Origin: Urbifossiella limnaea
GTDB taxonomy: Bacteria > Planctomycetota > Planctomycetia > Gemmatales > Gemmataceae
NCBI RefSeq assembly: GCF_007747215.1
Contig: NZ_CP036273.1
Location: forward strand, 6,556,322 to 6,620,321
Reading direction: 5' to 3'
DNA length: 64,000 nt
The notes below the pieces were generated by a model. The model had not been told where the DNA came from and ran no database searches. It was given only the letters and a program-made list of their open reading frames with translations. Shown in pieces: positions 16,719-59,837 of the stretch; position 1 is the stretch's first letter; the number at the start of each line of letters is the position of its first letter. Made by a program: the position numbers and the translations under genes.

Positions 16719-16864
16719 GAATCGCAGGGGTGTCAAGTTCGGCCCGCGGCTCGCCGGCGCGCGTTGGTGCGAAGCCGGGCCGGCGTAAGGGTTTGCCGCG
16801 CCGGCGGTATCCCATCTGCTCCGTCGTGCTACAACAGACCTGTGACCCCCGGGCAGGGCCAGAG

Positions 16865-18184
16865 ATGACCGCCGTCGAGCAAGAGAAGACCGGCCTCGGC
16901 AACTACTTCATCGCCAACTACCCGCCGTTCTCGTTCTGGAAGCCGGCGCACGTCGCCGCCGCCCGCGACGTGCTGAACGCGCCGCCCACGCCGGGCACCC
17001 CGCTCGGGCTGTACCTCCACATCCCGTTCTGCCGCAAGCGCTGCAAGTTCTGCTACTTCCGCGTCTACACCGACAAGAACGCCAAGGACATCGAGACGTA
17101 CCTCGGCGCCCTCACGAAGGAAGTGGAACTGCTGGCCGCGACGCCGGTCGTGGGCGGCCGGCCGCTCGACTACGTGTACTTCGGCGGCGGTACGCCGTCG
17201 TACCTCAGCGCCGCCCAACTCGACAGCCTGATGACGCGGCTGAAGCAGATCATGCCGTGGGACCAGGCCCGCGAGGTGACGTTCGAGTGCGAGCCCGGCA
17301 CGCTCCAGCGGCACAAGCTCGAAACGCTCCGCGCCCAGGGTGTCACCCGGCTGTCACTCGGCGTCGAGAACTTCAAGGCGGAGATTCTGCAGTACAACGG
17401 CCGCGCCCACCTCGAAGAAGAAATCGACCGGGCCTACGGCTGGGCGCGCGAGATCGGCTTCCCGCAGATCAACATCGACCTGATCGCCGGCATGGTCGGC
17501 GAGGACTGGGACAACTGGAAGCGGTGCGTCGAGCGGACCATCGGCCTCGCCCCGGACTGCGTGACGATCTACCAGATGGAGCTGCCGTACAACACGGTGT
17601 TCTCGAAGGAACTGACCGTGATCGGCAACGACGAGCCGAGCCTCGGCGTGGCCGACTGGCCGACGAAACGGGCGTGGACGAAGTACGCCTTCGCCGAGCT
17701 CGAAAAGGCCGGCTACACCGTGTCGAGCGCCACGACGGTGGTGAAGGACGCGAGCAAGACGAAGTTCGTGTACCGCGAGGCGCTGTGGCGCGGGGCCGAC
17801 ATGTTCGGCGCCGGCGTGGCGTCGTTCGGGCACGTCAACGGCGTCCACCTCCAGAACCTCGACACCTGGGAGACCTACACCGAGGCGCTGGCGAAGGGCG
17901 AGCTGCCGCTGGGGCGGGCGTTCCCGACGGTGGAGCGCGACCGGCTGGTGCGCGAGGTGGTGCTGCTGCTGAAGACCGGCAAGCTGGACGTGGGCTACTT
18001 CCGCGCCAAGTACGGCGTGGACATCCGCGACACGTTCCGCGAGGCGTTCGCCAAGCTCGAAGCCGACGGCTGGCTGACGGTCGGCGCCGAGTCGGTGGAC
18101 TGCACCCGCGACGGCCTGATCCAGATCGACCGCCACCTGCCGGCGTTCTTCGACCCGCAGTACGTGAACGCCCGATACACCTGA
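16865..18184 (+). CDS. HemW/coproporphyrinogen-oxidase-like radical SAM protein
   Basis: 439 residues from MTAVEQEKTGLGNYF; upstream frame is not coding-like. HIPFCRKRCKFCYF (about 54-67) gives the CxxxCxxC cluster motif of radical SAM enzymes, and YFGGGTPSYL (about 107-116) is the glycine-rich SAM-binding motif of the HemN/HemW group. The fourth Cys of HemN (CxC) is absent, replaced by Tyr, so true oxygen-independent coproporphyrinogen oxidase activity is doubtful. A HemN-like C-terminal domain follows (about 350-439). The next gene, after a large inverted repeat, is a GcvH-like lipoyl protein, which suggests a modification or electron-transfer partnership (inference). No heme-pathway gene is nearby. 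Confidence 0.85.
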   Translation: MTAVEQEKTGLGNYFIANYPPFSFWKPAHVAAARDVLNAPPTPGTPLGLYLHIPFCRKRCKFCYFRVYTDKNAKDIETYLGALTKEVELLAATPVVGGRPLDYVYFGGGTPSYLSAAQLDSLMTRLKQIMPWDQAREVTFECEPGTLQRHKLETLRAQGVTRLSLGVENFKAEILQYNGRAHLEEEIDRAYGWAREIGFPQINIDLIAGMVGEDWDNWKRCVERTIGLAPDCVTIYQMELPYNTVFSKELTVIGNDEPSLGVADWPTKRAWTKYAFAELEKAGYTVSSATTVVKDASKTKFVYREALWRGADMFGAGVASFGHVNGVHLQNLDTWETYTEALAKGELPLGRAFPTVERDRLVREVVLLLKTGKLDVGYFRAKYGVDIRDTFREAFAKLEADGWLTVGAESVDCTRDGLIQIDRHLPAFFDPQYVNARYT

Positions 18185-18200: not shown

Positions 18201-18292
18201 ATTTTAGACAGGATAACCGGATGAACGGGAGACCGATCCGAAGACACCGTCTTGGTTCGGTCTCCCGTTCATCCGGTTATCCTGTCTAAAAT
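18201..18292. repeat. Perfect 36-bp inverted repeat (palindromic element)
   Basis: Arms 18201-18236 and 18257-18292 are perfect reverse complements with a 20-nt loop that itself begins CCGAAGAC and contains AAGAC/GTCTT. The element fills the gap between the radical SAM stop (16 bp away) and the GcvH-like start (9 bp away). Its sequence differs from the surrounding DNA, with lower G+C. A second element of the same design is at 43177-43265. It could be a mobile palindromic unit or a transcript-level control hairpin. Confidence 0.85.
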
Positions 18293-18301
18293 TCGGAAAT
18301 C

Positions 18302-18772
18302 ATGCCCGACGCTCTCACCTTCCTGATGGGGAACCACCCGGCCGAGCTGCCGGGGGACCGCCTCTACTGCAAGAACCACATGTGGTGCCAGCCCACGCCC
18401 GACGGCCCGCTGCGGGTCGGGTTCAGCAGCTACGCCGTGCGGCTCATGCAGGACGTGTACTTCCTCGAATGGCGCACCGACCCGGGCCTCGTCACGCTCA
18501 AGCAGGAGATCGGCTTCATCGAGACGCAGAAGGCCACGTCCGGCCTGTACGCGCCGCTCGCGGGCCGCGTCCTGCGCTTCAACCCGGCGCTGCTGACGGA
18601 CCCGTCCGGGATCAACGCCGACCCCTACGGCGCCGGCTGGCTGTTCGAGATCGACGCCGACCCGACCGGGCACACGCTCGACGTGGCGGGCTACTACGCG
18701 CACCTCGAAGCCGGCTGGGAGGCGACCCAGCGAATGCTCAAGGGGCAGGTCAACAGCATCGAGGATGAGTAA
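18302..18772 (+). CDS. GcvH-like lipoyl-domain protein
   Basis: 156 residues. ETQKATSGLYAPLAGRV (74-90) matches the lipoyl-lysine region of glycine cleavage H protein, with K77 as the likely lipoylated residue. INADPYGAGWLFEI (104-117) matches the conserved H-protein C-terminal motif. It is longer than classic GcvH (about 125-130) at the N-terminus, and its start LYCKNHMW replaces the usual HEW motif. No gcvT or gcvP lies nearby; instead the neighbour is a HemW-like radical SAM gene. It may be a H-like lipoyl carrier for another pathway, as known for some lipoate-binding proteins of sulfur metabolism. Role here is inference. A strong hairpin follows the stop. Confidence 0.85.
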   Translation: MPDALTFLMGNHPAELPGDRLYCKNHMWCQPTPDGPLRVGFSSYAVRLMQDVYFLEWRTDPGLVTLKQEIGFIETQKATSGLYAPLAGRVLRFNPALLTDPSGINADPYGAGWLFEIDADPTGHTLDVAGYYAHLEAGWEATQRMLKGQVNSIEDE

Positions 18773-18867: not shown

Positions 18868-19082
18868 CCGCCGGGTTTTCAGGCCAACGGCCTGACAGCC
18901 CTCAGCCCAGGGCAACGCCCTGGGTTCGCGGCACGAACCACCCCCAGCCTGAAGGGCTGGGAGCCGGCTCGCAGGCCTTCAGCCTGCACGGCCATTCGCA
19001 CCCCGTACCCAGGGCGGCGGTCGCTGACGCTCCCTTGCCCCGGGTTGAGGGCTGTCAGGCCGTTGGCCTGAAAACCCGGCGG
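18868..19082. repeat. Composite palindromic repeat with nested hairpins
   Basis: This block occupies most of the 340-bp gap 18773-19112. Outer arms 18868-18915 and 19035-19082 are 48-bp reverse complements with two mismatches. Between and inside them are smaller palindromes: 18906-18924 (cccagggc/gccctggg), 18943-18961 (cccagcc/ggctggg) and 18971-18987 (gcaggc/gcctgc). No gene is plausible inside it. The layout resembles a palindrome-rich mobile unit; copies elsewhere in the genome cannot be checked here. Confidence 0.85.
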
Positions 19083-37926: not shown

Positions 37927-37978
37927 CGGCGTTGCGGTCCCCTCCGGCGGCCGAATTGCGTAGGTGGTTTCCGCTCCT

Positions 37979-38220
37979 CCCCGCAGGTGGTTCCCCCCTC
38001 ACCCCGCGTGCTTCGCCGCGACCCTCTCCCCCGAGGGGAGAGGGTGGGACTTGCCGGCGTCCGTCACGGGCGGGTATCGCCCCGCCGACGCCGGTGGCCA
38101 TTCCGAGCGTCGGCGCGTGGTTACCCGCCCGTGCGAGGAGACGAACCACGCCCACCCTCTCCCCTCGGGGGAGAGGGTCGCGGCGAAGCACGCGGGGTGA
38201 GGGGGGAACCACCTGCGGGG
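37979..38220. repeat. Large inverted-repeat element with 70-bp perfect arms, copy A
   Basis: It fills much of the 360-bp gap between the kinase and the M14 peptidase, which converge. Arms 37979-38048 and 38151-38220 are perfect reverse complements of 70 bp around a 102-bp loop. The loop holds a further imperfect stem (gacgggcgggtatcgcc with ggttacccgcccgtg). A close relative is at 59531-59767, so this is a dispersed, mobile-looking unit without any coding capacity; the open frames across it are shadows. Confidence 0.92.
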
Positions 38221-38286
38221 AAGTCCAACCACCACGTCCGCGAGTCGTACCGCCCCGGGGGCCGATTCGAGCCGCGACACCCCGCC

Positions 38287-43176: not shown

Positions 43177-43265
43177 GGGACTTTGGGACCGTGGGACTCA
43201 GGGACCGAGGGACCGAAGACCCAGGCTTGTCCCTCGGTCCCTGAGTCCCACGGTCCCAAAGTCCC
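43177..43265. repeat. Perfect 36-bp inverted repeat of the CCGAAGAC-loop type
   Basis: Arms 43177-43212 and 43230-43265 are perfect 36-bp reverse complements with a 17-nt loop that begins CCGAAGAC, as the loop at 18237 does. The arms are built from a gggac-like short motif repeated with small variation. The element fills the gap from the lipoprotein stop (9 bp) to the queA start (3 bp), so the queA leader is entirely this hairpin. Confidence 0.88.
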
Positions 43266-59426: not shown

Positions 59427-59530
59427 GGGCGCACCCGGTGGGGAATCGTGTCGAAATCGATTGGACTCGCCAGTCCGATCTACGGACCTACAGCTGATTA
59501 GGGTTGCGAAGCCGGCCCCCGGTCTTCCCC

Positions 59531-59767
59531 GGAGGTGGTTCGCCCCCTCACCCCGCGTGCTTCGCCGCGACCCTCTCCCCCGAGGGGAGAGGGTGGGCCT
59601 CACCGGTCCTCATCGCGGGCGGGTAACCACGCGCCGCGGCTGCGAAACACGCCTCTACCTCCGCGGGTCGATGCCCATCCGCGATGGGGGGTCGGGCGCT
59701 CTCACCCTCTCCCCTCGGGGGAGAGGGTCGCGGCGAAGCACGCGGGGTGAGGGGGCGAACCGCCTCC
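59531..59767. repeat. Large inverted-repeat element with 65-bp arms, copy B
   Basis: It occupies most of the 411-bp gap 59427-59837. Arms 59531-59595 and 59703-59767 are 65-bp reverse complements with one mismatch. They are closely similar to copy A at 37979, including the ACCCCGCGTGCTTCGCCGCG block, and the loop shares a cgggcgggta stretch with copy A in the opposite orientation. It lies between the MFS start and the enolase-like stop. No gene is present in the gap. Confidence 0.92.
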
Positions 59768-59837
59768 GATGAAACCCCGGGACCACGCACCCAACCCGGA
59801 CAACTTGCGGACTGAGCCCCCAACCCGGTGATGCCGG

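Follow-up and report, generated by a model that had tools for sequence, protein, structure and literature searches.

A perfect palindrome between a hemN-like and a gcvH-like gene

The window, a stretch of 64,000 nucleotides of the Urbifossiella limnaea genome (contig NZ_CP036273.1, positions 6,556,322 to 6,620,321), carries a perfect palindrome in the gap between a gene for a HemN-like radical SAM protein and a gene for a GcvH-like protein, both read on the forward strand (Table 1).

Table 1. Positions in the window of the palindrome and of the two genes that enclose it
Feature	Positions	Strand	Description
Upstream gene, HemN-like radical SAM protein	16730..18184	+	longest ORF; our own gene caller places the start at 16865
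Left arm	18201..18236	+	outer ATTTTA, then units GACAGGAT-AACCGGAT-GAACGGGA-GACCGA
Loop	18237..18256		20 nt, small internal GAAGAC/GTCTT stem, no ORF
Right arm	18257..18292	-	exact reverse complement of the left arm (36/36 positions)
Downstream gene, GcvH-like protein	18302..18772	+	PF01597, E 1.7e-19

A sequence-only reading that preceded this analysis had described exact 36-bp arms around a 20-nt loop with a stem of its own, separated by 16 bp from the preceding stop codon and by 9 bp from the ATG of the GcvH-like gene that follows. Coordinates and description are correct: the upstream TGA ends at 18184, the downstream ATG lies at 18302, and the label given to the downstream product agrees with its domain match. 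That reading had also placed the palindrome on the start codon, which is right as to proximity and wrong as to overlap, since the element ends 9 bp short of the ATG. Its proposal that a transcript would fold into a long hairpin is possible for either strand, with a predicted folding energy of -81.3 kcal/mol (z -12.1) that none of 200 shuffled sequences equalled. The sequence after the right arm is TCGGAAATC, without the T run that follows the stem of an intrinsic terminator. Rfam candidates such as mir-341 and Magnesium-II all remained below their gathering scores and are regarded as generic hairpins.

Within the window, the 29-base core of the arm matches both arms of the palindrome and nothing else, and 100 shuffles gave no match. 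The arm is built of short repeated units, its self-identity being 0.50 at lag 8 and 0.41 at lag 9. We also scanned a 464-kb sample of the genome, made of the window and 20 evenly spaced 20-kb stretches, for stems with loops of up to 900. Thirty-six stems scored at least 20, the palindrome itself scoring 36, while a single Markov-resampled control yielded no stem.

Several other repeats were seen on this occasion. A second perfect palindrome, with 37-bp arms of GGGAC-type units and a 15-nt loop, lies at window positions 43177-43265 and does not match the arms of the nine cassettes of this genome described below (score 6). Long inverted repeats with arms of 95-114 nt, about 105 nt apart, occupy positions 37935-38264 and 59501-59797 and share much sequence by eye. 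Directly after the GcvH-like gene, at 18868-19082, stands a member of another repeat family, an inverted repeat of 41-48 nt with a 119-nt middle that occurs twice in the 464-kb sample (also at L385:18887-19087). Finally, a separate family of GC-rich palindromes (GCGAGCGGCCCGCGTGAGCGGGCTGTT) with a REP-like look is found at L385:3902-3984, L392:7835-7912, L397:1181-1267, L399:7688-7766 and other places, and its GCGAGCGGCCCG has 14 matches in the 464 kb.

Related palindromes are dispersed between genes

According to the sequence-only reading, absence of any other copy together with absence of variation among relatives would indicate a unique local structure. A search of the whole 7.8-Mb genome for the arm showed that the palindrome is not unique: the genome has relatives of it at about 25 further loci, and related species differ at the orthologous site (see below), which favours the arrival proposed in that reading over a local oddity. 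Twenty-seven loci of the GACAGGAT-unit family were examined, with arm units resembling GACAGGAT, AACAGGAT and GAACGGGAT. In 25 of them the stem measures at least 24 nt and the loop fewer than 70; the exceptions are a locus with a 16-nt stem (L032) and one whose arms stand at both ends of a 396-bp stretch (L042).

The family is intergenic. Using gene calls made with our own codon-usage script, none of the 27 copies falls within a called gene, 23 have the 3' end of a gene at most 30 nt away, and 27 of the 29 gene 3' ends that adjoin an element lie within this distance. The flanking genes are oriented ++ at 10 copies, -- at nine, +- at five and -+ at three. The deficit of divergent pairs is only slight, because divergent gaps make up just 44 of the 203 gaps longer than 60 bp in the sample.

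Short, non-coding copies dispersed in one genome are what is expected of MITEs. With L032 and L042 set aside, none of the other 25 copies has a target-site duplication of 2-9 bp at the scripted ends, which speaks against a classical transposon. The tags of REP/REPIN elements are likewise scarce, GTAG being near an end in three and CGTC in one of 25 copies. Close copies occur in eight of the 95 genomes of the family Gemmataceae, from two of its 39 genera, a distribution that counts against the reading of the elements as relatives of gene-bearing cassettes developed below.

Rare changes are mirrored in the two arms

Across the 21 copies in which both anchors are present, arms belonging to the same copy differ on average at 0.24 of 26 positions. 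Between copies the difference is 6.0 of 26, which is too high because some copies are out of register by one base. Changes that are rare in the family, present in one or two copies only, are found in both arms of six copies (L001, which is the window palindrome, L003, L006, L011, L034 and L100), and five copies show one inter-arm difference each (L014, L020, L027, L046 and L092). Since independent mutation would rarely be mirrored, each arm seems to be copied from, or corrected by, the other. It was claimed from the sequence that a perfect stem without drift argues for recent arrival or selection. Arrival stands, but with six of 21 copies carrying mirrored rare changes and five of 21 a single difference, the perfection of the stem alone is no clock for the insertion, and the step from it to recency or selection is not supported. 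A single template switch during replication is enough to produce a perfect stem, and such switching can also repair stems (PMC8794818).

Arms of the same type enclose GxxExxY genes, and other arms enclose S23 genes

The genome contains three PF13366 (GxxExxY) genes and seven PF05635 (S23) genes. One of the GxxExxY genes, L262 (positions 6072557-6072895 of this genome), matches PF13366 and TIGR04256 at E 5e-40 and sits between GAAGAAAATGAACAGGATAACAGGATGAACAGGAT and its near-exact inverse, which is the arm type of the window palindrome. The local score of the window arm against the L262 arm is 17, as compared with a mean of 6.65 and a maximum of 11 for 40 shuffles set against all nine arms, and the units of both elements run in the same direction from outside to inside. 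In GxxExxY proteins, the D, E and K of the PD-(D/E)XK nuclease motif are invariant in all 27 seed sequences.

A locus was called armed when its two 220-bp flanks shared a local inverted match of at least 15, a rule that was applied throughout. In the phylum, the order arm, gene, inverted arm was observed at 23/30 GxxExxY loci and 25/30 S23 loci, as compared with 0/30 PIN controls, and nine of the ten GxxExxY and S23 genes of this genome are armed too. Flanks cross-paired from different loci passed the rule in 43/578 cases for GxxExxY, 4/569 for S23, 3/174 for the genes of this genome and 6/577 for PIN; the higher GxxExxY background is due to units such as ACCACAGAG, which reappear in different genomes. 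The rule leaves unarmed seven of the 30 GxxExxY loci, five of the 30 S23 loci and one of the ten loci of this genome (L257), which has a separate palindrome alongside. Both genes are widespread in the phylum, GxxExxY being present in 55 and S23 in 58 of 119 genomes.

The arm units are specific to the gene class. Among arms that passed the rule, those of S23 genes (25 + 6) have an identity of 0.64 at lag 7 and 0.66 at lag 14, lag 7 being the best in 22/31, while those of GxxExxY genes (23 + 3) have their best lag at 8, 9 or 10 in 24/26 and at 7 in 0/26. The window arm, with its peaks at lags 8 and 9, is of the GxxExxY class. Thirteen of the 36 stems of the 464-kb sample match an arm of the nine cassettes of this genome at a score of at least 13, against 4 of 1440 shuffles; one of the 13, at window position 59530, only just reaches this score and is part of a long inverted repeat. 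S23 cassettes also seem to have gene-less counterparts, for example the TGAAGGGG and CGAATGA palindromes.

At L042 (1501-1896 of the locus, 1099956-1100351 of this genome), the GACAGGAT arms enclose a 99-aa ORF with two CxxC pairs. It has no match in Pfam or NCBIfam and is possibly a third cargo.

Arms and GxxExxY genes in other phyla and on plasmids

The triplet GACAGGAT-ACAGGAT-ACAGGAT was found in at least 118 stretches, many of which form palindromes. The records are labelled Planctomycetota, Verrucomicrobiota, Kiritimatiellae, Chloroflexi, Acidobacteria, Bacteroidetes, Proteobacteria, Methanoperedens and others, and many are metagenome bins, whose individual taxon labels may be wrong. In the phylum of the window, 16 of 392 genomes hold the triplet. 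With a locally built profile, GxxExxY was detected at six of 148 GACAGGAT loci, representing five distinct places, and in all six the nearest arm lies at most 106 bp away. Arms of the same type adjoin GxxExxY in a Verrucomicrobia bin (L143) and in another planctomycete (L228). S23 was discarded as a partner of GACAGGAT arms, as the 148 loci contain only two S23 genes, 657 and 897 bp off. In named loci, 98 small ORFs lie no more than 350 bp from an arm and only one of them is PF13366; together with the six loci in 148 this indicates that most arms stand without the gene, which counts against the cassette reading. No transposase family appears among the matches listed for these 98 ORFs (25 of 109 families).

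Other arrangements of the arms were noticed. In two Kiritimatiellae bins (L155 and L171) and an uncultured bacterium (L159), GACAGGAT arms stand 444-1205 bp apart around other ORFs, among which neither GxxExxY nor S23 was recognised. In two Deltaproteobacteria contigs, GACAGGAT palindromes form head-to-tail arrays with a spacing of about 112 and 187 bp (L115:17-600 and L148:50-750).

We also turned to 30 genomes labelled neither Planctomycetota nor Verrucomicrobiota, picked for holding the GACAGGAT triplet. A PF13366 match was obtained in 25 of them, and GxxExxY loci from these other phyla are armed in 16/30 cases, as compared with 21/569 for cross-paired flanks. GACAGGAT-type arms occur at GxxExxY loci of Rudanella, Spirosoma, another Bacteroidetes, a member of the Desulfobacteraceae, Acidobacteria (with degenerate units) and Muproteobacteria. 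On plasmids, GxxExxY has eight matches in 72,556 records, four of them armed (cross-paired control 0/134), although one of these four, L436, matches via a stretch that is itself palindromic. On a Sphingomonas parapaucimobilis replicon (L441:1513-1941), an armed GxxExxY gene is inserted between fabD and fabG. Arms at the threshold are absent from 14/30 loci of the other phyla and from 4/8 plasmid loci, which again counts against the cassette reading, and 50,697 phage records gave no GxxExxY match.

The orthologous gap changes its content between species

A GcvH-like match is present in 94 of the 95 genomes of the family. The survey of the site took the best 30 of the 94, of which 27 were used and three dropped as the end of the upstream gene was not found; the relatives compared are different species, not strains. 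A stem of at least 20 occupies the gap in 11/27 with gapped and 10/27 with ungapped scoring, and its sequence varies: CACAGAG units in G027, GTGTGAGTGCGAG in G016 and G023, CGCGGATAAACGCAGAT in G009 and GCACAAAGG in G012, among others. G091 and G092, two species of the genus to which the window belongs, have a GxxExxY gene in this gap (E 5e-51 and 4e-50), enclosed by CCGCAGAG-type arms that score 15 and 19. The remaining 14 gaps have no such stem and measure 3 to 891 bp, six of them at most 48 bp. Within one genus (g25), the gap measures 3 and 4 bp in two species and contains a 27-bp perfect palindrome in a third.

The rest of the same loci has five stems in 87,509 bases, from which 0.27 would be predicted in the gaps. 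As this background is mostly coding, the gap downstream is the fairer control, and the 150 bp after the GcvH-like stop contain stems in 2/27. The hemN-like/gcvH-like gap thus looks like a recurrent target site. Origin of the window palindrome by deletion of the gene from the cassette of the sister species was set aside, the arms being of the CCGCAGAG type there and of the GACAGGAT type here.

Discussion

The palindrome probably belongs to a family of hairpin-armed cassettes, as a MITE-like form without a gene; this reading takes in movement in trans with GxxExxY, copying by the host, template switching between the arms and a step carried out by RNase III. The element behaves as a MITE does and is laid out like the intervening sequences (IVS) of 23S rRNA, yet it fails a defining test of each. 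As with MITEs, it is short, non-coding and dispersed, with inverted repeats and with ends like those of a relative that bears a gene; unlike them, it has no target duplication, its arms are parted by a short loop only, and the gene-bearing relative encodes the PD-(D/E)XK protein GxxExxY and not a known transposase. The heptameric STRR repeats of cyanobacteria, which are intergenic tandem heptamers, resemble the element in having tandem short units between genes. REP/REPIN elements and the RAYT 'TIRtrons' are also intergenic palindromes, many of them downstream of genes and in several phyla (PMC3733652), but the window family lacks the GTAG/CGTC tag and has arms made of 8-9-nt tandem units.

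In the IVS of the Coxiella burnetii 23S rRNA, a 28-bp terminal stem surrounds a small S23 ORF, which is preceded by tandem heptamers (GACAGAT); its authors call the element selfish, and RNase III cuts it out of the rRNA (PMC4990558). Terminal inverted repeats forming a long stem are a feature shared with the 36-bp stem of the window, and the Coxiella heptamers agree with the period-7 arms of the S23 genes described here. The window element differs in that it lies between HemN-like and GcvH-like genes and not in rRNA, has no S23 ORF in its 20-nt loop and carries arms of the GxxExxY class.

The distribution of the copies leads us to infer that the element moves. It would do so in trans, most likely via the GxxExxY protein acting at the hairpin ends built from the units, and host replication or repair could copy it into gaps just past stop codons, the insertion settling where harm is small, right behind the stop codon. 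To our knowledge, neither GxxExxY nor S23 proteins have transposase chemistry, which counts against movement driven by the cassettes. Template switching between the arms is a possible means of keeping them identical. In a transcript, the stem would be a double strand and a substrate for RNase III, cleavage of which may separate the hemN-like from the gcvH-like message and would make the insert nearly neutral. For the S23 class, the resemblance of PF05635 to the Avd protein of diversity-generating retroelements (PMC10053308) makes a reverse-transcription route conceivable.

Another explanation could be that the palindrome is a REP/TIR-type repeat moved by a RAYT-like tyrosine transposase, the GxxExxY gene being a passenger between two copies. 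R. baltica is a planctomycete. It is named in the account that describes RAYT genes with long flanking terminal inverted repeats and repeat families (PMC3733652). The missing target duplication would fit a tyrosine transposase, and other ORFs do occur between the same arms (L042, L155, L159 and L171). We nevertheless find this explanation unlikely: GTAG and CGTC tags are near an end in so few copies, no transposase family is among the matches listed for the arm-adjacent ORFs, and passengers would not explain why the arm type tracks the gene class.

We are more doubtful still that the palindrome serves the gene pair as a functional hairpin, that is, a terminator or an element of RNA processing or mRNA stability under selection, in which the stem alone matters and the sequences in relatives are therefore free to differ. 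Stems of several different sequences in 11 of the 27 orthologous gaps, the nearness of 23 of the 27 copies to a gene 3' end and the mirrored arm changes would all suit it. Against it stand the same sequence type at about 25 other loci, the gene cassette that two sister species hold in this gap, the six of 14 stemless gaps that measure only 3-48 bp and the missing T run behind the stem. It is very improbable that local sequence gave rise to the palindrome on the spot, through template switching and fold-back: such an event can form a perfect stem at once (PMC8794818), but similar arms and loops are present in copies at other places in the genome, so that it was not made locally.

Returning to the hairpin-armed cassettes, we tentatively propose, as a possibility short of a probability, that they form an undescribed class of mobile elements, spread over many bacterial phyla and, as palindromes, archaeal bins, and operating with no known transposase. 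rRNA IVS, S23 genes, GxxExxY genes and orphan palindromes would then be one thing, the unit length (7 or 8-10 nt) would be matched to the protein, and favourite sites would take successive palindromes. In the literature searched (open-licence texts, most of them as search entries), we recognised no paper that describes inverted arms around GxxExxY or intergenic S23 genes, and the passages covered there give no settled role for either protein. If the proposal is true, two protein families and many orphan palindromes would gain a single explanation, of which the rRNA IVS would be the best-studied case. 23S_rRNA_IVP genes within CRISPR-Cas loci have been read as functionally linked to them (PMC3936711), and insertion between the genes of an operon would offer an alternative. 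With units specific to each class and a recurrent site, mobility of these elements becomes directly testable.
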